Source of the DNA: Mycteria americana
Taxonomy: Eukaryota > Chordata > Aves > Ciconiiformes > Ciconiidae
Direction: 5' to 3'
DNA: 64,000 bases
Assembly (NCBI RefSeq): GCF_035582795.1
Contig: NC_134366.1
Span: 1,438,501 to 1,502,500, forward strand
The number at the start of each line of letters is the position of its first letter. Positions within the stretch are counted from its first letter, which is position 1. The notes below the pieces were generated by a model. The model worked only from the letters and a program-made list of their open reading frames with translations, was not told where the DNA came from and did no database searches. Made by a program: the position numbers and the translations under genes. Of the stretch, positions 112 to 12,700 are shown in pieces.

Positions 112-727
112 CTCGAGGACCTGCAGCGCCGGCAGGAGCTGAGCTTCACCGTCGAGGAGACCTCGTGCCGGGCCCCAGGGATGGCCACCGCCGCCTGCAA
201 GAGCCTCTGGCTCAGGGTGAGGCTTCGTCCCGTGGGGCCGCCCGCTGGCATCCCCGCTGGGGACCCGGGGAGCGGCCGATGGGGAAACTGAGGCACGGGG
301 TTCGGGGCTCCTCTCGGCCTCGTCTTCCCCGCGTCCCCCTCTGCTTCCCCGCAGGCGGTGAGTTGGTGCCGGGGCTCCGTCTTCCTCGAGCAGCAGCGGC
401 CCACGGTCGAGCTCTCCTGCGAGAAGGTGCCCGCCACGGTAAGAAGGTGCCCGAAATGGCACCGTCCCCACCGCGTCCCCTGGCTTCGCCGCCCGCTCCC
501 CTCCCCGGCTGCCGTGGGACGCGTCCCCAGGGGGTCACCCAGATCCCCCCTCCCCGCCCCATCTCCCTGAGGTTTGACGCCACCGCTTCTCCTCCCAGCT
601 CGGCCTTATCCGGAAATCCAAGCTCACGAGCTTTTTTGCCAGGATCAAGGCGCATTTCAGGGGTTTCTTCCAGTGCGGAAAGATCTGGATCCGCGACAGG
701 CTCAACCTCCAAAACCCCAAAGCCTGA
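112..727 (+). CDS. CATHB1: CATHB1-like cathelicidin precursor, exons 2-4 (5' partial)
   Basis: Secreted myeloid host-defence peptide precursor. Exons read as 112-216 (35 codons), 355-438 (28 codons) and 599-727 (42 codons plus TGA), all phase 0 with AG/GT borders; exon 1 (signal peptide and start of the cathelin domain) lies left of the window. Exon 2 carries the cathelin signature ELSFTVEETSC and a second Cys; exon 3 has Cys at its codons 5 and 22, matching the CATHL2 exon 3 positions, so the two pro-domain disulfides can form. Exon 4 encodes a cationic peptide beginning LGLIRKSKLTSFFARIK and ending IRDRLNLQNPKA, with ten Arg/Lys against one Asp. The ending recalls chicken CATHB1 and the position next to CATHL3/CATHL2-like genes fits the chicken order as I remember it; the orthology is inference. 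Odd: one unpaired Cys at residue 26 of the exon 4 product. Confidence 0.8.
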
Positions 728-803: not shown

Positions 804-1314
804 GCAACCTGCCTGGTGTCACCCCGCTCCCTGCGGGCCCCTGCGCCGCCCCGTCCCCCTGCACCCCACGGTCCCCGAGGGCTCGCGGTCCCACAACTCC
901 CCCCCCCCCCCACCGCCACGCCCAGCCGAGGGGCTCGGAGGGTTGGGGACACCGCGGGGAGTGGGTGTCCCCGAGGGGGACCGGGCCTGCCACCGCCCGC
1001 GCTCGGGACACGCTCAGGACCCCCCCACCCTGTGTTCCCCCAAAAAAACCCCTGCCGCTCTGTGGGCCGGGGCCAGGCGTTTCCGGAGCGGGGGAGCCGA
1101 GCCCCGGGGTGGGTTCCCGGGGGGGGATAGAAGGGGACACGGGGGTGGCCGTGGGGACAAGGATGCCGAGCTCCTGGGCGCTGGTGCCCTCCCCGCCCCC
1201 GTCCCCCTCGCCTACCCCCAGGCGCTGGCCCAGGCCGTCGACTCCTACCACCAGCGCCCCGAGGTGCGGAACACCTTCAGCGCCGAGCCCGAGCCCGCCC
1301 CGGTGAGTGCCACC
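804..1314 (+). repeat. Inverted duplication, left arm (promoter plus exon 1)
   Basis: This stretch matches the reverse complement of 4435-4980. It covers the upstream region, TATA-like site, 5' UTR, exon 1 and about ten bases of intron 1 of the damaged cathelicidin. The roughly 90 bases before the start codon are almost identical in both arms. Similarity falls away inside intron 1, and exons 2-4 of the two genes are clearly different, so the shared block looks like a recent duplication or gene-conversion tract. Confidence 0.8.
1127..1133 (+). promoter_or_regulatory. Degenerate TATA-like site of the CATHL3/1-like gene
   Basis: ATAGAAG lies 36 bases before the start codon, at exactly the place where CATHL2 has ATAAAAG. 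The surrounding sequence is otherwise nearly the same, so this is a single A-to-G difference in the presumed TATA element. Confidence 0.45.
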
Positions 1315-1994
1315 ACCCAGGGACACCGCGGGGTCCCCCGGCGTCCCCATGGGGACATCGGGGGGGTGCCAGGCCCTACGCGTGGTGGGGTGTTTTGGGG
1401 TGCGGGGTGGGATGCGGGGGGATGCTCCCCCCTGGGTTGGCCCCGGGGAACCCGGTGATGGGTGCCACCTCTCCCTGGTGGGTGCCACCGCACTGTCCCC
1501 GTCTCTGTCCCCACGGGACACCCAGCTCAGCTCCCCGCAGCGCCTCGATTTCATCACGGAGACGCGACGCCCGGCGCGCTCGGGCGCCCGCCGCGACGCC
1601 TGCGAGCTCAAGGACGACGGGGTGAGGGCCTTGGGGGGGTCACCCACCTCTCGTGGGGTCCCCAGCCTGGGGACCGTCCCCCCCCACGTGTCCCCACGCT
1701 CAGCCCCCCGCTCTCCGCAGCTCCCTGCCCCCGCGCGGCGGCCGCCCCGTGCTCAACGTCACCTGCGCGGGCTCCGCCGTGGATGTGAGTTGGGGGGTCC
1801 CGGGGAGGGGGGCACAGGCTGCGGGGTGCAACCCCAGCGCCTGGAGAGGGGGGGGTCCCCATGGTCCCCCCACGCCGTGATGCCTCCTCTCCCCGCAGCC
1901 CGTCCCTGTCAAGCGCTTCCGGCCACTGCTGACGGCGGCCATCAAGGCGGCGGCCACCGGCATCGGTGTCTTCAAGGCCATCGAGAGGAAGTGA
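1163..1994 (+). pseudogene. CATHL3/CATHL1-like cathelicidin, disrupted as assembled
   Basis: Four-exon cathelicidin: exon 1 1163-1302, exon 2 about 1526-1621, exon 3 about 1721-1784, exon 4 1899-1994. Exon 4 is intact and reads PVPVKRFRPLLTAAIK to FKAIERK, close to chicken CATHL3/CATHL1 mature peptides (VKRFWPL start, KAIRRK end, from memory). The pro-region is damaged relative to CATHL2. Exon 1 starts MPSSWALV, then lacks 25 bases of the signal-peptide core, which shifts the frame, and lacks nine more bases further on. Exon 2 has lost its first Cys and one residue. Exon 3 keeps only its 3' part (NVTCAGSAVD), without the first Cys and out of frame with exon 2. Either a pseudogene with a still-recognisable peptide exon or an assembly fault in GC-rich sequence. 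It sits in tandem behind the CATHB1-like gene and converges on CATHL2. Confidence 0.7.
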
Positions 1995-2049
1995 GACCCC
2001 CTGGGTGTCCCCCTTGGGACACCCCCCTTGGGCACCCCCCCGCTCCCCA

Positions 2050-2055
2050 AATAAA
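2050..2055 (+). terminator. Polyadenylation signal of the CATHL3/1-like gene
   Basis: AATAAA about 55 bases after the TGA at 1992-1994. Confidence 0.75.
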
Positions 2056-2079
2056 GCTGCTTCCCGGCCCCGCTGTGCC

Positions 2080-3035
2080 TTTTCCTGCTGCCGTCGCCCT
2101 GCCGGGGACCGGGGACACGCGGCCTGGGGGGTGATGCTGATGGAGGAGGGTCCTGAGGTGGGGGCAGCGGGGTCAACCCCCCCCGGTCGGCACCGCCGGC
2201 TCCCGGGGCCTCATCCTGGCACCGGCCTCGTGCGGGGACTCGAGCCCCCCGGCCTGGGTCCCCCACTGTGCCCCGAGACACCTTGGGGACGAGAGGGTCC
2301 CCCGGGAGCCTGTGCCAGCCGCGGGGACCCCACGGGGGGGATGCGTGTGGGGCACAGACCCACGGGACCGTAGGCCCGTTGCAGGGGTGGAGGGGACGGG
2401 AGGGGACATCCCCAGGGTCCCACGGGGTCACCGGAGCCGGGGCTGCAGCCACGACCCCGGGGTGGCCGCTCTCGGGTCGCGGGGGTCCCCGTGCACCCCG
2501 TCCCCACGTCCCAGTGTCCCCATCCCAAACCGCGGGTGACGGCCCCGGTGGCGTGGCTGAGGCCGATGCCCGGACGCCCCCGGGCAGGGGTGCGCCGTGG
2601 GGTCCCTCAGGAGCCGAACCCCCCCCCCGTCCCTTCTCTTGGGGCACACAGCCCCGGTGCCACCCCTCTGCCAACGCCACCGGTTTTGGGGACAAAACAC
2701 CGTGGGGACGATGACGCCGTGGGGACGATGGGAGGTGGGATGTGAAGGGCTGCTTTTTTTTTTTTTGGGGGGGGGGGGGGGGGGTGTCCTGGGGGCTCCC
2801 CGGAGCAAAGCTGGGCCCTGCCCCAGTGCCGACCCCCCGTCCCCTCGGGGGCCGAGCCCTTGGGGATCCCCAAAGCCGGGACATTGCGGGGGGGGCCGGC
2901 GGCGAATGATGCGGGGAGAGGAGCCCACCCGGCTCCTGCCTGCGCCCCCTCCCCGCGTGCCTCAGTTTCCCCCTCCCCTGCACCCCAGGAGGCAGCCAGG
3001 AGCCCGGCTCACGCACACCGGCCGTCACCGGCCCC
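2080..3035. other. Intergenic region between convergent cathelicidin genes
   Basis: No gene seen. The sequence is GC-rich and low in complexity, with many CCCC/GGGG runs and many long but meaningless open frames. It holds a homopolymer block of about 13 T followed by about 18 G at 2754-2784, a place where assembly or sequencing errors are likely. Confidence 0.6.
2754..2784. repeat. Poly-T/poly-G tract
   Basis: Thirteen T directly followed by eighteen G. The G-run can form a G-quadruplex, and the tract length is probably unreliable. Confidence 0.9.
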
Positions 3036-3041
3036 TTTATT
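3036..3041 (-). terminator. Polyadenylation signal of CATHL2
   Basis: AATAAA on the minus strand, only three bases after the CATHL2 stop codon at 3047-3045, giving a very short 3' UTR. Confidence 0.8.
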
Positions 3042-3044
3042 CCT

Positions 3045-4620
3045 TCAGCCCAGGCGGACGGAGCCCCCGGCGTAGACCCTGAAGCTGATCCTGGGCCGAA
3101 AGCGCCGGATCCTGCTCAGGAAACGCCCGAACCGACCCCGCTGGATGAGAACCGGCTGCCGGAGGGACGACGGGGTCACGGGGCTGTGTCGGGGGGGGCC
3201 GCTCGGGACCCCGCACCCCACACCCAGCATCACGCGGGTGGGACCGAGCGCCCCGCACCCAGGATCCTGCGCACCTTGAACGCCACCCGGGACCCCGCAC
3301 CAGCACCCCGCAGCTGGGACCCCACCCAGGACCCCGCACCCAGCACCCCGCAGCTGGGACCCCCACTCAGGAGCCCCCACCCAGCACCCCGCAGCTGGGA
3401 CCCCACCCAGGACCCCGCACCAGCACCCCACACCTGGGACCCCACCCAGGACCCCGCACCAGCACCCCACACCTGGGACCCCACCCAGGACCCCACACCC
3501 AGCACCCCACACCCAGGAGCCCTCACTCAGGAGCCTGCACCAGGGACCCAACACCCAGGACCCCAGCCAGGACCCCAAACCTGGCACCTGCACCCAGGAC
3601 CCCCACCCCCAGCACCCTGCACCCAGCACCCAGGAACCACACCGGGGACCCCACACCCAGGACCCCTGCAGGACCCCGCACCCGGGACCCTGCACCCAAG
3701 AACCACACTGGGGACCCCATACCTGGGGCCCCACACCCGGGACCCCTGCAGGACCCCGCACCCGGGACCCTGCACCCAGGACCGCACACCCAGCACCCTG
3801 CACCCAGGACCCACACCTGGGACCCCACACGTGGGACCCTTGCAGGACCCTGCACCCAGGACCCCCCACCCAGGTCCCCGCGGGTGCCCCAGGACCCCCC
3901 CATCCCACCCTCCGCCGCCTGCGGGCTGGAGACATCGTGGCAGGACTGAGCCATCGGGGTGTCCCTTTTGAGGGCAGGGGCACCAACGCCCCACACCCCA
4001 CCCGCGGGTGCCCCCATCCACGGTCAGCGGGTGCCGGGGGTGGGCGCCGTCCCCCCCACTCACGTTGGACGAGGCGTCGGCGCAGCGCAGGTCGATCTCG
4101 GGGGACGCCTGCTGGAACTGCACCGGCCCCGAGCACTCCTTGATGACCTGGGGACGCACACACGCGACAGCCAGCGTCACCCCGGGGACCCCGCGTGAGG
4201 ACGCCCAGGACCCCCCCCCCCGCCGCCCCCCACCCATCCTCATCCTCACCCCGTTCTCCTTGAAGTCGCAGTCGTCGGGGTTCACCTGGGTGCCGTGGGT
4301 GCACTCCGTCTCCATCATGGTGAAGTTGAGTTGCCGCAGGGTGCTCACATCGAGGCCCTGCGGGGACGCGGAGCGGGTGGTCACCGGTGGGTGGGGGGGG
4401 GGTCACCGGTGGGTGTGGGGGGGGTCACGAGCGGGGTGGCACTCACCGAGGTGGGCTCGGGGTCGGCGCTGAGCAGCCTGAAGACGTTCTGCACCTCCGA
4501 GCGCTGGTTGTAGGAGTCGACGGCCTGGGCCAGCGCCTGGGTGTAGGCGAGGGGGACGGGGGCGGGGAGGGCGCAGGCCCCCCCCAGCACCACCAGCACC
4601 AGCGCCCAGGAGCTCGGCAT
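3045..4620 (-). CDS. CATHL2: Cathelicidin-2 precursor (complete)
   Basis: Secreted antimicrobial peptide precursor of avian heterophils. Four phase-0 exons with GT/AG borders: 4620-4447 (58 codons), 4357-4250 (108 nt, the classical exon 2 length), 4147-4064 (84 nt) and 3155-3045 (36 codons plus stop), 158 residues in all. Residues 1-17 form a signal peptide (MPSSWALVLVVLGGACA). The cathelin domain shows QALAQAVDSYNQRSEVQNVF, FTMMETEC, DDCDFKENG, KECSG and DLRC, with four cysteines. Exon 4 reads PVLIQRGRFGRFLSRIRRFR and so on, very close to chicken CATHL2 (QRGRFGRFLRKIRRFRPK), with ten Arg and no acidic residue. It ends in Gly, so C-terminal amidation is possible. Intron 3 is enlarged by a minisatellite. 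The gene converges on the CATHL3/1-like gene and shares promoter and exon 1 with it as an inverted duplicate. Confidence 0.93.
3200..3890 (-). repeat. Minisatellite in CATHL2 intron 3
   Basis: Degenerate tandem array of roughly 20-40 base units built on CCAGGACCCCGCACC, CAGCACCCC and CTGGGACCCCAC on the plus strand. It fills most of intron 3, between the last cathelin exon and the mature-peptide exon. The transcribed RNA is G-rich (GGGT/GGGG words). It leaves one frame open through the intron by chance, which gives a long false open frame. Confidence 0.85.
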
Positions 4621-4980
4621 CCTTGTCCCCACGGCCACCCCCGTGTCCCCTTTTATCCCCCCCGGGAACCCACCCCGGGGCTCGGCTCCCCCGCTCCGGA
4701 AACGCCTGGCCCCGGCCCACAGAGCGGCAGTTTTTTTTTGGGGGGGGGACACGACACACGCAGGGTGGGGGGGTCCTGAGCGTGTCCCGAGCGCGGGCGG
4801 TGGCAGGCCCGGTCCCCCTCGGGGACGCCCACTCCCCGCGGTGTCCCCAACCCTCCGAGCCCCTCGGCTGGGTGTGGGGGGGGGCTGGGGGGGGTGTGGG
4901 ACCGCGAGCCCTCGGGCACCGTCCCCGCTTCCTGGGGGGGTGCAGGGACCCGCAGGGACCGGGGTGACACCAGGCGTTGC
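4435..4980 (-). repeat. Inverted duplication, right arm (promoter plus exon 1)
   Basis: Reverse-complement partner of 804-1314. It contains the CATHL2 upstream region, TATA-like site, 5' UTR and exon 1. The outer limit, near the GGTGTCACC word, lies about 140 bases from the polyadenylation signal of the neighbouring cathelin-fold gene. Confidence 0.8.
4650..4656 (-). promoter_or_regulatory. TATA-like site of CATHL2
   Basis: ATAAAAG on the minus strand, 36 bases before the start codon. If it is used, the 5' UTR would be only about ten bases long. An upstream block containing CTCTGTGGGCC and GTTTCCGGAG is also conserved in the partner arm. Confidence 0.45.
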
Positions 4981-5120
4981 CCGTAATGGGGTGGTGCCCC
5001 CCGGCTTTGCGCAACCCCGGGCTTGCCCCATCCCTGTTGCCCAACGCGGGGGGTGCCCCCCCCCCCCGCCCCCCAACCTGTGTCACCCCCACACACGCAC
5101 ACGTACGACCCCGAAATATC

Positions 5121-5126
5121 TTTATT
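5121..5126 (-). terminator. Polyadenylation signal overlapping a stop codon
   Basis: AATAAA on the minus strand. In the preferred reading, the TAA stop of the cathelin-fold gene (5124-5122) lies inside this hexamer. Confidence 0.65.
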
Positions 5127-5994
5127 CCAGCCCCACGGGGGACGGGGGTCCGCGGGCTGTCCCCGGGAGGGACGCGCCGGCGGGGGGCCGAGGCCGCGGG
5201 GGCGGCTGCGAGGATGATGATGACGACGACGGGTGACCCGGGCTGGCGCCGAAGGCTCGTGGGGTGCCGGGGGAGCGGGGCTGGGTGCTGCCGCCGGGCT
5301 GCTGGGGGGAGAAATAAGGGTGGGCTTCACCCCGCAGCCAAAAAATGTCCCCAGAGCGTGCGTGTGGGGCGGGGGGGGGGACATCCCCGCCGCTGGGCCC
5401 CCCGCCCAGAGGACGGGGGCGCCTGGAGCCCTCACCGGCTCCCGGCCGCACTCCACCATCGACAGCGGCACGTCGGGCAGGAAGGCGAAGACGGAGACCT
5501 GGGCCGTGCACCGCTGCACCTGGGGGACGTAGTGACCCTGAGGACCCCGGGGACGCCTCTCTGTCCCCTTCCGTGTTTCGGGGGGGGCGGTCGGTCCCAC
5601 GCTTACCCTGCCCGGCCGGGCTTGGCACCCGGCGCCGCGGCGGTCGGGGAGGTTTTTGGGGCAGGCGGGCTGGCGGGCAGTGAAGTTGATGCTGAAATGG
5701 GTGCCCCAGTCAAACGTCTGCCGGGGCGGGAAGGACGGAGCCGTCAGCGGCTTCCCGACGCCGGAGGGGAAAGGGGTCCCCACCGGGACGGGCGCCCGAG
5801 CCGGGGGCACCCGGCCGCGCCCGCCGCATCGCCCACCCTGCTCCTACCGTCCTGGCGACTCCCAGCAGCTTGAGCAGCCTCAGCTCCTGCCCGTGGGTCT
5901 CCAGCACCGAACGAGCCAGGTCGCGGGGAGCCGGCAGCCCCGGCGGGACCGCGGCACCCGCCGCCAGCAGCACGGCTCCCAGCACCAGCGCCAT
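5122..5994 (-). CDS. Cathelin/cystatin-fold secreted protein with Pro/Ser/Arg-rich tail
   Basis: Four phase-0 exons with GT/AG borders: 5994-5848 (49 codons), 5717-5607 (37), 5519-5436 (28) and 5301-5122 (59 codons plus TAA), 173 residues. The first exon starts with a signal peptide (MALVLGAVLLAAGAA) followed by a helix-like segment (ARSVLETHGQELRLLKLLG). Exon 2 has FSINFTARQPAC and a second Cys; exon 3 has two Cys (QRC and VEC). The four-Cys spacing and the 84-nt third exon match the cathelicidin genes next door, and the Cys pattern also recalls chemerin. The last exon is not a classical antimicrobial peptide: it is Pro/Ser/Arg-rich with a run of seven Ser. Mouse Ngp, as I remember, lies near the same neighbours, so this may be a locus relative of NGP or chemerin; the function is unknown. 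The final exon is the least certain part. Confidence 0.7.
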
Positions 5995-6542
5995 GCGGCC
6001 GAGGGAGAAGCGGGAGGACGAGGGAACGGGCTGTCGGCTAGGCTGGGGGCCCCCGGCTCGGCCGGCTTCGCCTCCAGGATAAACACCGGGCCCCCGCTGC
6101 CGCGGGGAAGGGATCGGGTTGCCGGTGTTTTCCTTGGCACGGTGCCGTGGCGGGCGCTTGCCTGCGTCTGGCTGGGATGCGGCGATGCCGGAGGCTCGGC
6201 AGGGCCGATCCCCCTCCGCGGCCCCTTCCCTTCGTCCGCTCCCAGTTTCGCGGCAGGACGGTACAGCCGATGTCGCTGGGATCCATCCGGCCACGCTCGA
6301 CATCCCGCTCCTCCCGAGCCGGGAGCCGGAGCATCCTCCCGGCTCCTACGGAGAGAAAAACCGGGAGCCCCCTCCCCTCTCCCTCTTTCTTTCCAGTTTT
6401 TGGGTTTTCCTTAAATCCCTCCCGCTCCGCTCAGAGCTCAGACTCAGCTAAACTCCCCGTCCCCGCACCATCACGCCCCAAACCCTCCCCGCCTCACCCA
6501 GAGATGCCACACCGGCTGGCCAGGGGACGAATTTCTCTTGGT
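5995..6542. other. Intergenic region, presumed promoter of the cathelin-fold gene
   Basis: GC-rich up to about 6,330, then becoming AT-richer. It lies between the start of the cathelin-fold gene and the presumed 3' end of KLHL18, both on the minus strand. No further gene and no convincing TATA box are seen. Confidence 0.4.
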
Positions 6543-6548
6543 TTTAAT
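6543..6548 (-). terminator. Candidate distal polyadenylation signal of KLHL18
   Basis: ATTAAA on the minus strand, about 2.8 kb after the KLHL18 stop codon, with a GT-containing stretch downstream. The distance agrees with the long 3' UTR I remember for mammalian KLHL18. Another ATTAAA lies at 8450-8455 and could be a proximal site. Confidence 0.35.
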
Positions 6549-9342
6549 ATAAAAAGGGTGAAGCGACAGTAAAAGTGCCCTTCTGAGGCGGGGACGAGGG
6601 CTGGCCAAAGCCCCGGTGCGAGGGTGGTGGGTGGTGCGGCAGCGTGGTTTGTGGACACAGAAACGTGCCGCTATCACGAGGCTCTTGAACGCGTTTTGCA
6701 ACATTTTTGGGTTTTCCTTGCATTCGAGGACGGGGGATTTAGGGAGGATTGCACCGAGCGGATCACGCTCTCCCAGGAATTTACAGTCCCTGGGTGACCG
6801 GGGCTCGTTTCCCCAAAATTCAGTATTTTTCCGTCCCCGGACAGACAGCAGCGGCGCGGGGCCAAGGAGGGAGGTGCCGCGGCCTTGCCGAAGGGCCAGG
6901 AGCTCCCCTTTCTCTTTGGCTCATCCACAAAGGAAAAGCAAAGAAACCCCCGGGGAACGAAAGCCGGGGAGCTCGAGCAGCGTGGCTGGGGGACGGCCCA
7001 GTCCCCGCCTGGGAGCCTGCGGGGCACCAGCAGCCCCGGCTTTGGCAGGTCTCGGAGCCGCCGCTCTCGCGAGCGTATTCGATCCAACGTTCACGTTCTT
7101 ACGGACACGAAACCCCGGCTGGGAGGGAGAAGGGACGCAGGACGGGACAACAGCAGAGCGGGAGAGCGGCCCCGCTCTCGTCAAAGCCTCCTCTGCGCAG
7201 GGCGACCGTCAGCAGGACGCGTCCGGGAGAAGAGAAGATGCTAGGGGGTGGGAGATGAGGCGGTGGGAGCAGGAGCTACAGACTCCCCCCAGCAGCACTC
7301 GAGCCGGGGGAACTCGGGCAGAGACAGAAGAAGGCCCTGCGCTCCTTCCCTCCTTCTGCAAAGACCCCGCTGCGGCTCCCGCTCAGTTATTTCTGCAAGT
7401 CACGGCCCACAAAGCAACTCCATTTCGATTCCCATGTTGGAATTTTGGTTGGTTTTTTTTTTTTTTTTCCTTTTTAAAGAGTCTGAGCAGCATGGAAACC
7501 CCAAGTGAATCGTCCCTCCAGTGAACCCAGCAGTCGATATACACGGAGGAAATAGATATATACTGACAAATCACATTTATAGCCAGATATGCTCATTATA
7601 TATACCTAAAATATACATAGTACCTGAATATATAGACATCCACATATACACCCAAAGTTAAAATCCCGAGCGATGCTGGGAGTCAGGTATGAACAAGGGG
7701 GGGGGGCTGGGGTGAACGTCCAGCTCCCCCCGGCTCGGTGCCAGGCGGGGAGCAGGGGGGGCCAGGCTCGGAGCCCCCCGAAACCCAGGGATGGGGCAGG
7801 ACAAGGGGCGAGATCCCCTTCCCTTCGCTGCTGCCGGTGGCTTAGTGTCGCGTTCCTCCCGCCCGAGCAGGCAGGGGTGGCAGCAGCCTCGTCCCTGCCC
7901 GTCCCTGCCTGTCCCTGCCTGCCCGCCGGCCGCTCCTGCGGCAGCGAAGAGGTATGGCTTTGCCGAAGGGTGAGGCGGGAGGGAGACCCGGAGGGATGGC
8001 GGTTCACATTCATGCAAGAGGAAGCGCTGAAGAACTGCTGGAAGCGAGTACTTCCCAGGCAGGGAGCCGCCGCGCCGCCTGCACGCCGCTTTCACGGCCG
8101 GCGGCGGCTTCAGCTCGGCCACAAAGAGTTTCCCGGCACAAAACCCACCGTGAAGACCTTTCCCAGCGGAGCAAAACAGAAAATACCAAAGGCGTGGATC
8201 TTGCCCATGCCAGGGCTCTGCCAACACGCCGTTCTCCCCGGCCCTTTGCAGAGATGCTCACCCTGCGTCCCCGCGTGGGAGTTCGCCGCCCGAAGCGTCC
8301 CCGGGGACGGCAGCTCCCCACGCCGGCACAGCGGTGGGCTTCCAGAGCTGACAAAATTCAACACCTATTTTTCTTGCCCCTCCTGAAAGATCTCGGCCAC
8401 ACTCTGCTCCAGATGCCTCTTATACATCCGCTTTGAAAATATATCAATATTTAATTTAAGGGACGTCTTTATAATTAACACCTCGGCCTATTTCCCATTT
8501 TGAAATCCTAAGACTGTTGCTTAGTGTCATTTACGTTCAGCCTTCTCCTCCAAAGCTTGCTAAAATGATTCGATGGTTTAACCGACTGGTTTTTCCTCTT
8601 CCTAGTTTCTCCATCATGCGGCTCTTGTGGAGAAGTTTTCCCCATCGAGCTGAAGAAAGCACAGCTCCGCTTCGAGAAGCCAGCGCTGCCTTGTGTAAGA
8701 AGCACCTTGAAACGCAGAGCCTGGATGCGGTCGGGGAAGGGACAGGGCTGGGTTTTTTCTGTTTCAATAAGCCAGGCGAGAGCCACCCGTGCCCAGCAGC
8801 AAGCTGCCCCGACACCCAAACATCGCTGCTGACCGAAGCCTCGAGGCATCGGGGTAATTTTGCTGCCGACAGAAGGCGCGGACGTATTTTCAAAGTCATT
8901 AAAGTGTCCGTTTTTATGTCGCAATTAAGCCTGCCCCCTCCCCCAGCCTACGACAGCACTTCCCAAAGGTGCAGCCGAAAGCAGACCGCAGGGCTATTTG
9001 GAAAACCAACGGCGAGAGGAAAGATCTGCTTGAGTCACAGCTCCGAGCAAAGGCTAACGGGTGGCGGAGGGAGGCGGGCAGGTCCTCGCTCGCACCGGCA
9101 CGTAGACAACACCGTATTTCACCACGTTTGGTCTTTCGGGAGCCTCAGCCCAAAAAGCCAAGGGTGGGGATTGTCGAGTTTTTTTGTTTTTGTTTTTGTT
9201 TGTTTCTGTGTGTTTGTGAATGACACTTGAGCACCTGGAAACGCACCTCGGCGCATATCGCATCGCCAAACCCGTCTCTGAACCTCTCCTCAGATTGTCG
9301 TTGAAAAGGTAGCCCCCCCCGCCCCCCCAAAACGCTTTCTTC
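6549..9342 (-). other. KLHL18: Presumed KLHL18 3' UTR
   Basis: Non-coding stretch after the KLHL18 stop. It includes a T-run near 7450-7468, an AT-rich patch with TATATA and ATATAC words at about 7550-7645, a G/C-run stretch near 7698-7710, and a GTTTTT-rich patch at 9181-9212. No other gene seen. Confidence 0.45.
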
Positions 9343-9729
9343 TCAGATGGTCAGGAGGGGTATGCAGCCCACGCCGACCCCTCCCTCGTGGCACACCATG
9401 GGGGCCATGAACGTCCAGCGGTTTGTCTCCGGGTCGTACATTTCTACCGAGCTGAGGTTGGACTGTCCGTCGTAACCCCCCACCGCGTAGAGACGGCCAC
9501 AGTTCGCAACGAGGGAGACGCGGCTCCTCCGGGTGTTCATAGGGACGATCAGGTACCACTGATCCGCCATGGAACTGTAGACTTCGGCGATGCTGAGGAA
9601 GCCCGAGCCGTCGTAGCCTCCGCAGACGAACATCTTGCTGCCCAGGGATGCTGCTCCGTGGCGGCAGCGCTTGTTGAGCATGCTGGCGACCGGGTGCCAG
9701 GTGGCCGTGTGATGGTTGTAGTACTCCAC
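9343..9729 (-). CDS. KLHL18: KLHL18 exon 10: last Kelch repeats and stop
   Basis: 387 nt, 128 codons plus stop, starting at a phase-0 junction ([14 protein letters not shown]). It encodes the last two full Kelch blades and the C-terminal strand that closes the propeller, ending [18 protein letters not shown]1 element begins only about 60 bases upstream of its splice acceptor. Confidence 0.95.
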
Positions 9730-12700
9730 CTGCAGTCACAGCGAGCACACGGCGTTAGGGGACCCTCGCTCGGGACCTACCGCGCGGCACAATCACAGAC
9801 TCACAGAGTCGTGTAGGTTGGAAAAGACCTTGAAGATCATCGAGACCAACCATAAACCTAACACTGCCAAGCCCACCACTACACCATGTCCCTCAGCACC
9901 TCATCCACACGGCTTTTAAATACCCCCAGGGATGGCGACTCCACCACTGCCCTGGGCAGCCTGTGCCAGTGCTGGACAACCCTTTCGGTGAAGTAAAATT
10001 TCCTCATATCCAGTCTAACCCTCCTCTGGCGCAACTGGAGGCCATTTCCTCTCGTCCTGTCACTTGTTACCTGGGAGAAGAGACCGACCCCACCTCTCTA
10101 CCCCCTCCTTTCAGGCAGTTGTAGAGAGCGATGAGGTCTCCCCTCAGCCTCCTTTTCTCCAGGCTGAACAACCCCAGGTCCCTCAGCCGCTCCCCATCAG
10201 CCTTGTGCTCCAGACCCTTCCCCAGCTCCGTTGCCCTTCTCTGGACACGCTCCAGCCCCTCAATGTCTCACGAGACACGAGAATCACACGAGACTGTTTC
10301 AACACCCGACTTCAAGCCGGCCGGGGAACTTGGGGTTTGTTTTTTCATTTCATACAATCATAGTTCCTGTCGTTATTAAGCTTTTCTAACACCAACCCTT
10401 GCGTTTCACGCCGCTCCCTCCGACCTCAGCCCGGTAACTCACTGGTGAGCTGGGGCAGGTGAATGGGAGAGACTGCTCTCCCCACCCCATATGCTAGAGA
10501 GACCACAGCAAACACAGCTTTGAAGATGCTCCCTCTGCCTCTCTCCCCGTTCATCAGCTTCCGCGTGGTGTTTTAAACAGGTACCTGAGCCTCAGCACCA
10601 AAAGGATTGAGCACCCTTCACTTAAAGTTCCATTGCCACGGGATCGCGTCTCAATTTCAAGGTATTAATTTTCCTCGTGCGCACAAGATCACGCCGCCGC
10701 CCCAAGGCGGAACCAGCCAAAGCTCTGTCAGACCCAAGAGGTGCACGTCCAGGCTGTCCTTAATGATGCCCTAAGTCTCCCCTAACCCTAAGTGAGCCTC
10801 CCCACTCTCTCCAGGCAGCAGATTTCAGCTGTAACACTTCAAACTTTCCACATTTCTCACGTCGGACGACCACCGCTCCTGACGCGGCTCAAGCCCATGT
10901 CCTGCAGCCCGCGGCAAAGGGTAGGGTTTCTTCCCTTCCTCTGCCCGGTAAACTCTTCCGCTTTCGGAAAAGGCTGACATCTCCTCCCTGTGTATTTGTA
11001 GAAGAGCTATCTGGCACCTCAGGGGGAAAAAAACCCCACCCCAGCCACCCACCATTTTGTATCCCTTGCATTTCTAGAGAGACCATTAGATGGACCCCTT
11101 CTGCAAGGGCTCCTGCGCTGCTCCAAACCCGTCACGCTCAGGAACGTGCTCAGACGAGCAGATTTGTCGTTCTTGGCTCTGGGGTACTTCAGGCTGCAGA
11201 CAACAGCCTGCCTCTGATCTGCTGAGCAAGGCAGAAAGGGTCATTGCTACTCCCAAAAAACCCCTTTATTACAAATTTCCGAGAGCAGTGCGTTAGTGAC
11301 AGACCCAACTCAGATACGGCTCCCTGCGTTCTCGCTCCCGAGAGGATAAATGAGTCTTCTCTGTTCCGCATCAGGTTTTTCTTTAGAGAACAGGCAGAAA
11401 ACCGACACGCAGAGCAGGTGGAAGAGGGCAAGCGGCCTCGTACCACCAATTCCCCCTGCTGCGAAGCCCGTTTCAAAGGCAATCCGTTCCTGAAACTGAA
11501 GCCATCAAACAGGCACAGAAAGCAGAGGTAAGAGCCTGGCATCTGGGATACTTCCGAGCTCAAAGGGACGCAACGATGCGACAATTTAAAAAGTGAAGGA
11601 AGTAGGGAGACAACAAAATGCACTGACTCAATCCTTTTGGTGCTGGGGAACACGAGCAGCACTTCCAGTCCAGTTCCCAGTGGGTACCTGGCTAGCTCAT
11701 TTCTTCCCGAGCAAGAAGAAAGGTCTTGGAAATGACAGAATTTGGTGGTGCAAACAACTTACGGCACTTTGGGCGCACAGGGAAAGGGCACGGAGCCTTC
11801 CCAGCCCCAGCCCGGCCTTTCGGCTACCTGCAGTAGATTAATTTCTGCACGAGGCTTGCAGGAACCCGCACCCCGCAGACTTACGCTGTTGAAGATCTGT
11901 AGGCCGTCGTGCCCTCCCGAGACGTAGATGCGGCCCTCGAAGATGGTGACTCCAGCGGCGCTGCGGTTGGAGCTCATGGGGGTCACCACTGTCCACCTTG
12001 CCGGGAGAAGGGAGAGGTTAGCTCACACACACACACAGCCCGCGGATTATTTCAACTCGATCGGATTTTCTAGGACTGGGTTCCAGTAACTCTCCTTTCA
12101 ATGCCTATTTTATTTAAACCATGGTTTTCTTCGCTTGGATCCAGGTAAACTCTCGCGAGGAGGGATGCTGCTCCTCTGCCAAGATATAAAGGCTTTTCCG
12201 CATCGTTCACCGTGTTTCTTTTACAGCCCGGACGCCCACGTAGCGGTGCCACGGCACGGCACTACCCTAGCAGCAAACAGACGGATAAGCTTTAGGGCAC
12301 GAAGAGCTCTTACTTGTTCGTTTCTGGAGAATAGGACTCCACGGAGTTGAGGGATGAGTTTCCATCGTATCCACCACATACGTAGATCTGGCCATCCAGC
12401 ACCACCGTTCCCATGGCACTGCAACGAACAGCAGGACCCCGTGAGACGCCGTAGGTGCTGCCGCACCGTCTGTAACGCAGTACGGCCGCACAGCCTGCCC
12501 TGCCCGCTGCCTGCCATCACCTCCTTCACCGCCCCGAACCTCCTCCTCTTCCCCTCGCTTCACCTCCAGGTTGCTCAGCCCCTCAATGCCATCTGAGCGC
12601 TAGGTCTCACAGGTCACGAAAGATGCTTGCGGCATGAACGCACCCCGTTTTCCTCCTCAAAGGAATTAAACCAAAACACAGGGAGAAATTTTGATCCAGA

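Follow-up and report, generated by a model that had tools for sequence, protein, structure and literature searches.

What gene, if any, lies between CATHL2 and KLHL18 in the cathelicidin cluster of Mycteria americana? In the majority of bird species the published order of this region is KLHL18, CATHL2, CATHL3, CATHB1 and TBRG4, with no gene given between the first two (Cheng et al., PMC4571063; this and the other papers cited are represented here by excerpts). We analyzed a stretch of 64,000 nucleotides (the window, C2:1,438,501-1,502,500; positions given without a contig name refer to it), in which a four-exon model on the minus strand, at 5122..5994, occupies exactly this place. All three known bird cathelicidin clades are accounted for in the cluster, so this gene, hereafter the focal gene, is an extra one. 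Such a gene is not mentioned in the excerpts of PMC4571063, PMC6716921, PMC12006171, PMC3978490, PMC9686568 and PMC10618271 or in the titles and abstract openings of related papers, a sample of largely open literature that does not extend to gene databases or the genomes of other birds. The initial annotation, made from the letters alone, described a cathelin-fold relative beside the cathelicidins and suggested that it could be NGP-like, chemerin-like, or a proline-rich cathelicidin-type effector. We propose, with a probability of about one half, that it is a protein-coding, single-copy paralogue belonging to the bird cathelicidin cluster, in which the core is the working part of the protein.

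The focal gene comprises 173 codons and a TAA stop. Its exons of 147, 111, 84 and 180 nucleotides (nt; the last figure counts the stop) are each a multiple of three and are joined in phase 0, and its introns of 130, 87 and 134 nt are of the GT-AG type throughout, with donors GTAGGA, GTAAGC and GTGAGG and acceptors CCCCGGCAG, TCCCCCAG and TTATTTCTCCCCCCAG. The hydrophobic N-terminus encoded by exon 1 is predicted to be signal-like by Kyte-Doolittle hydropathy. Exons 2 and 3 carry one cysteine pair each, and exon 4 has zero cysteines (Table 1). Re-reading of the sequence confirmed what had been annotated about coordinates, phases, length of exon 3, cysteine pairs, serine run and the PPPRPRPP motif. 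The frame of exon 4 is supported because it follows the good acceptor TTATTTCTCCCCCCAG and is the sole frame ending at the poly(A) signal; the alternative frames were rejected, as they have no stop ahead of that signal. For comparison, the stop of CATHL2 lies 3 nt from its AATAAA. The GC content at codon positions 2 and 3 was 0.51 and 0.88 in exon 1 and 0.46 and 1.00 in exon 3, the low/high pattern typical of coding DNA. Intron 2 (5520-5606, 87 nt) is in frame and stop-free, so that its retention would lengthen the stretch from Cys 2 to Cys 3 by 29 residues.

A genome-wide search for a second copy in this assembly (1.35 Gb, as in all genome-wide searches here) found none. The search returned 11 rows at E<=10; four were the focal gene itself, one of them running through exon 3 plus intron on either side, and the other seven had E>=0.3.

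The similarity of the encoded protein to cathelins exceeds chance. A profile built from four cathelins, with the focal gene excluded, gave its core 15.2 bits, a score attained by none of 20,000 plain shuffles and none of 20,000 shuffles in which the cysteines were kept (maxima 11.2 and 11.8, respectively). With a profile of cathelins plus chemerins the score was 19.3 bits, and the maximum in 20,000 shuffles was 9.9. A phmmer search against 177,635 PDB sequences gave only two distinct matches at E<=10, both of them protegrin cathelin. The core matched them at E=0.083 and 0.092, the full-length protein at 0.22 and 0.25. In pairwise Smith-Waterman comparisons, protegrin cathelin scored 62, human chemerin 56 (longer chain) or 55 (88-residue fragment), human CAMP 47, the chemerin of this bird 41, CATHL2 39 (attained by 22 of 3,000 shuffles), and CATHB1 34. 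The four cysteines align with the four cathelin cysteines in all five aligned sequences; their spacing is 11/9/19, as against 10/10/16 in CATHL2, human CAMP and protegrin and 9/10/16 in CATHB1. A further profile search ranked cathelins above chemerins and chemerins above cystatins, but its own alignment included cathelins and a chemerin, and it is therefore no test of the focal gene. Together with the exon plan and the position, the profile and shuffle tests bear out a relative of the cathelins beside the cathelicidins, and homology within the cathelin clan is supported; the fold itself is a prediction from sequence.

The same profiles indicate how remote this relationship may be. The cathelin profile gave 12.8 bits with the chemerin of this bird and 12.7 with human chemerin, compared with 15.2 for the focal gene, and when CATHB1 was left out of the training set it scored 40.1 bits versus 13.7 for the focal gene. 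As chemerins score almost like the focal gene and CATHB1 far higher, the gene would stand on the margin of the accepted cathelicidin family or outside it, about as far off as chemerin. Like the avian cathelicidins, it lies in the cluster, has four phase-0 coding exons and carries one cysteine pair in exon 2 and another in exon 3; its exon 3 has the same length, 84 nt, as that of CATHL2 and CATHB1. Its sequence similarity to the avian cathelicidins is weak, significant against the cathelin profile but not against CATHB1 alone. It differs from them in cysteine spacing, in having a basic propiece, in giving no Pfam match, and in a low-complexity tail of 59 residues where they have a shorter, more strongly cationic peptide. 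By eye, neither PROSITE motif 1 nor motif 2 of the cathelicidins, in the form given by PMC12006171, was seen in it. The neighbours are imperfect too, since CATHL2 deviates once in motif 2 and twice in motif 1, and CATHB1 retains F-x-V-x-E-T-x-C of motif 2 without its Lys or the remainder.

The Pfam family Cathelicidins (PF00666) matched the controls CATHL2 and CATHB1 (Table 1). When the genome was scanned with it, only two CATHL2 exons matched and CATHB1 was missed as well, so the scan is uninformative about the focal gene. At the DNA level, exon similarity to CATHL2 and CATHB1 was weak, being attained by 1 to 285 of 500 plain shuffles (the lowest counts were 1/500 each for exons 1 and 3 against CATHB1 and 6/500 for exon 1 against CATHL2), and a recent duplication is thus not supported.

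Searching the genome with human chemerin gave two exon matches in the right order at C2:645 kb, with E=0.27 and E=1.8, and these led to RARRES2; one row at another place scored better (E=0.036) but contains three stops. RARRES2 is intact, occupies C2:644,885-646,274 on the minus strand, encodes 162 amino acids ending in YLPGMYAFSMGLPA, and lies on the same contig as the cathelicidin cluster, 0.8 Mb away. Its presence rules out that the focal gene is the chemerin ortholog. An SPP2 ortholog was also rejected: the one Spp-24 family match of the genome is on C9, and the focal protein had no Spp-24 match.

RARRES2 has four coding exons in phase 0; its exon 2 carries two cysteines, and its 105-nt exon 3 carries three. 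The annotated layout does follow the cathelicidin plan, as found in CATHL2 and CATHB1, but because RARRES2 shares its phases and cysteine-bearing exons, this layout marks the clan and is not specific to cathelicidins; the 84-nt exon 3 and the location favour the cathelicidin side. Further likenesses to chemerin are a clan-level similarity in exon 2 (C..RP-GR...C), a basic core, and a wider gap from Cys 3 to the final cysteine of the core. The focal gene differs from chemerin in having four cysteines, not six core cysteines, and a Pro/Ser tail instead of the conserved C-terminus.

The unconstrained tree, with values of 98 for the chemerin clade and 75 for the cathelicidin clade, placed the focal gene between chemerins and cathelicidins, and so did the best of the five candidate trees compared. 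The approximately unbiased (AU) test marginally rejected its grouping with human chemerin (p 0.042) and also with CATHL2 and CATHB1 together (p 0.043). The trees were built from seven short sequences, which are too few to settle the placement.

The tail of 59 amino acids contains 16 Pro and 5 Arg, no Lys, Trp or Tyr, and has a charge of +4. Among 5,000 dinucleotide-preserving shuffles of its DNA, 94% were open, 59% had at least 16 Pro and 96% reached a charge of +4 or more. Minus-strand frames of 177 nt nearby were open in 65% of cases in 2001-5121 and in 43% in 5995-7000; open frames with at least 16 Pro made up 4.5% and 0%, respectively, the tail DNA having more Pro codons than the DNA around it. 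This DNA is locally C-rich, and the Pro content and charge of the peptide follow from its base composition. Openness, Pro richness and positive charge are thus mostly not more than chance. Composition fails to explain the run SSSSSSS, which appeared in none of 5,000 dinucleotide shuffles and in 1 of 20,000 codon-order shuffles; with codons TCG (three), TCA (three) and TCC (one), it looks like a grown trinucleotide (short TCN) repeat. The order PRPRP, part of PPPRPRPP, is somewhat unusual (109 of 20,000 codon-order shuffles). If the gene is translated, the tail probably is too, and there is little reason to expect that it is a selected antimicrobial peptide.

The charge of the core was +5 in the focal gene, -9 in CATHL2, -1 in CATHB1 and +7 in the chemerin of this bird. 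The propieces of avian cathelicidins are reported to co-vary in charge with the cationic peptide and balance it (PMC4571063). In the focal gene, a basic core is joined to a positive tail and no such balance exists. According to PMC12006171 and PMC3978490, NGP stays uncut and probably has an immunomodulatory role, and the antibacterial activity of chemerin resides inside the disulfide core, at V66-P85 (PMC9405667); the stretch aligned with V66-P85 has a charge of +3 in the focal gene, +5 in human chemerin and +6 in the chemerin of this bird. The basic core and these two precedents favour action through the core. We infer that the gene is expressed and that it probably encodes a secreted protein. 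Two disulfides, one each from exons 2 and 3, would close its cystatin/cathelin-type core, and a disordered Pro/Ser/Arg-rich tail would follow. By analogy with NGP and chemerin, this protein would most likely act uncut, whether secreted or stored in granules, via its basic disulfide core, and not by release of a tail peptide.

The main rival of this reading is a decaying cathelicidin relic, a pseudogene that keeps open frames in very GC-rich DNA. It is strengthened by the state of CATHL3, the next gene but one in the same cluster, which is broken; it also agrees with the ease with which tail shuffles and neighbouring frames stay open, with the lack of coding periodicity in exon 4, and with the loss of both cathelicidin motifs and the altered cysteine spacing. 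We nevertheless consider it unlikely, in view of four exons in register with canonical splice sites, four retained cysteines, no stop or frameshift, and the coding-type GC pattern of exons 1 and 3. That there is no gene and only chance frames is scarcely credible: the GC content is very high and long open frames occur on both strands, but the cathelin-profile score lies above every shuffle in two sets of 20,000, and the location and exon plan are both right. The score of human chemerin, close to that of protegrin cathelin, agrees with the initial suggestion of a chemerin-like gene, which might now be a second, diverged chemerin-type gene within the cathelicidin cluster. This seems very improbable, as the chemerin of this bird scores lower and is encoded elsewhere, the chemerin profile gave only 8.1 bits, exon 3 is not of chemerin length, the further cysteines and the YFPGQFAFS-type end of chemerin are absent, and the clade with human chemerin was marginally rejected by the AU test, though not by the Shimodaira-Hasegawa (SH) test.

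Proline-rich cathelicidins of the Bac5/Bac7 type have a Pro/Arg-rich C-terminal exon behind the cathelin part, and the focal gene resembles them in having such an exon after a cathelin-like part. The reading that the focal gene is a cathelicidin precursor, and that a proline-rich antimicrobial peptide is cut from its exon 4 product, would fit the tail charge, its 16 Pro in 59 residues, PPPRPRPP with its uncommon PRPRP order, and the rarity of Pro-rich frames in the neighbouring DNA. We judge it improbable, and the effector proposed at first is weakly supported at best: the base composition of the tail yields its Pro content and charge, Arg is scarce and a Ser run present, the propiece is basic and lacks the charge balance reported in birds (PMC4571063), the acidic cathelin domain of such precursors is missing, and no Val-type elastase site was seen at the junction CGREP-QPGGS ahead of the tail. 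A bird counterpart of NGP, retained at the KLHL18 end, is to our mind no more probable than this. The position recalls that of the marsupial NGP-like genes, which adjoin KLHL18 (PMC12006171), and this part of the initial suggestion stands; a tail without the character of a helix-type antimicrobial peptide would also suit a protein that, like NGP, is possibly uncut. NGP identity is nonetheless disfavoured by motif, motif 2 being present in 103 of 103 cathelin-domain sequences of PMC12006171 and absent from the focal gene. The 10/10/16 spacing is likewise absent, and the tail of +4 sets the gene apart from the NGP C-terminus, which is described as net negative (PMC12006171).

Several results weigh against the favoured reading of a coding paralogue at the edge of the family. 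Pfam gave no match at E<=10 with either the whole focal protein or its cathelin part. The local similarity to CATHB1 is so weak that 156 of 3,000 shuffles attain it, and the chemerin-profile score was equalled by 6 of 20,000 shuffles. The AU test rejected neither a sister position to CATHB1 (p 0.39) nor one to CATHL2 (p 0.22), and the SH test rejected none of the five candidate trees; a placement outside the cathelicidins is not proven. GC at position 2 of exon 2 was 0.65, which is not low, and exon 4, with GC of 0.72/0.83/0.82 by codon position, shows no coding-type periodicity. Because open frames are frequent in DNA this GC-rich, the intactness of the gene is weak evidence of selection. A structure prediction, run on the contiguous exon 2-intron 2-exon 3 read-through and not on the spliced protein, had a predicted local distance difference test (pLDDT) score of 39.8, too low to be informative. 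Pattern searches in viral and prokaryote contig collections gave 215 and 590 matches with 0 confirmed and thus no relative in another species, as expected for a bird gene.

The genes of the cluster are, in order, a putative TBRG4, CATHB1 (+), the broken CATHL3 (+), CATHL2 (-), the focal gene (-) and KLHL18 (-). The gene beyond CATHB1, which had no Pfam match, we take to be TBRG4, and KLHL18 is presumably identified by the C-terminus of its protein. The coordinates of the features are given in Table 1.

Table 1. Positions of the focal gene exons and of neighbouring features in the cathelicidin cluster
Feature	Position	Strand	Description
Focal gene, exon 1	5848..5994	-	ATG, hydrophobic signal-like stretch (predicted), LPAP..., putative alpha-helix; 49 codons
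Focal gene, exon 2	5607..5717	-	First Cys pair, C-X11-C; 37 codons
Focal gene, exon 3	5436..5519	-	Second Cys pair, C-X19-C; 28 codons, 84 nt
Focal gene, exon 4	5122..5301	-	Pro/Ser/Arg-rich tail, 59 amino acids, TAA stop
AATAAA poly(A) signal	5121..5126	-	Overlaps TAA stop of focal gene
KLHL18, last coding exon	9343..9735	-	Kelch_1, E=2e-36; 3' end faces focal gene
CATHL2	3045..4620	-	Exons 4447-4620, 4250-4357, 4064-4147, 3045-3155; Pfam Cathelicidins, E=1.7e-29
CATHL3-like gene, broken	1163..1994	+	25-nt and 9-nt deletions in exon 1 relative to CATHL2
CATHB1, exons 2-4	112..727	+	112-216, 355-438, 599-727; Pfam Cathelicidins, E=9.9e-10
CATHB1, exon 1	L003:9588-9848		Upstream of window; completes CATHB1

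The mature peptide of CATHL2 resembles crow CATH-2 (PMC10618271). A degenerate tandem repeat of the GGACCCC/CACCCAG type, at 3199-3893, takes up much of the 908-nt intron 3 of CATHL2. CATHL3 looks like a pseudogene by its sequence, with exons 2 and 3 retaining only one cysteine each; its exon 4 nonetheless reads PVPVKRFRPLLTAAIKAAATGIGVFKAIERK. An inverted duplication of about 0.5 kb, in seven pieces that are 87-96% complementary, joins 811-1314 (+) to 4435-4975 (-) and covers exon 1 of both CATHL3 and CATHL2 together with the DNA upstream of each, which points to a recent duplication or gene conversion. Exon 1 of CATHB1 encodes three PGxxGST repeats (PGPDGST, PGSEGST and PGLPGST). These are akin to the PGLDGSXS octamers that have been called apparently unique to Galliformes (PMC4571063), though the cluster has the non-galliform gene order.

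Beyond the favoured reading, it is possible, though doubtful, that the focal gene represents a third cathelin-chemerin lineage, old in sauropsids and overlooked since it fails the cathelicidin profile, which with its basic core and disordered tail would be a step between cathelicidins and chemerin. If so, the linkage of chemerin and cathelicidins within 0.8 Mb would reflect a common origin by local duplication. Cathelicidins were found in 21 of 53 surveyed bird species, for which poor assembly of the region was blamed (PMC4571063). The focal gene shares the cluster, the exon plan and the cysteine pairs and yet fails the cathelicidin profile, so screens like this 53-bird survey could miss such genes. 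If conserved, it would be a non-classical addition to bird innate immunity and would help to test the kinship of cathelicidins, NGP and chemerin.
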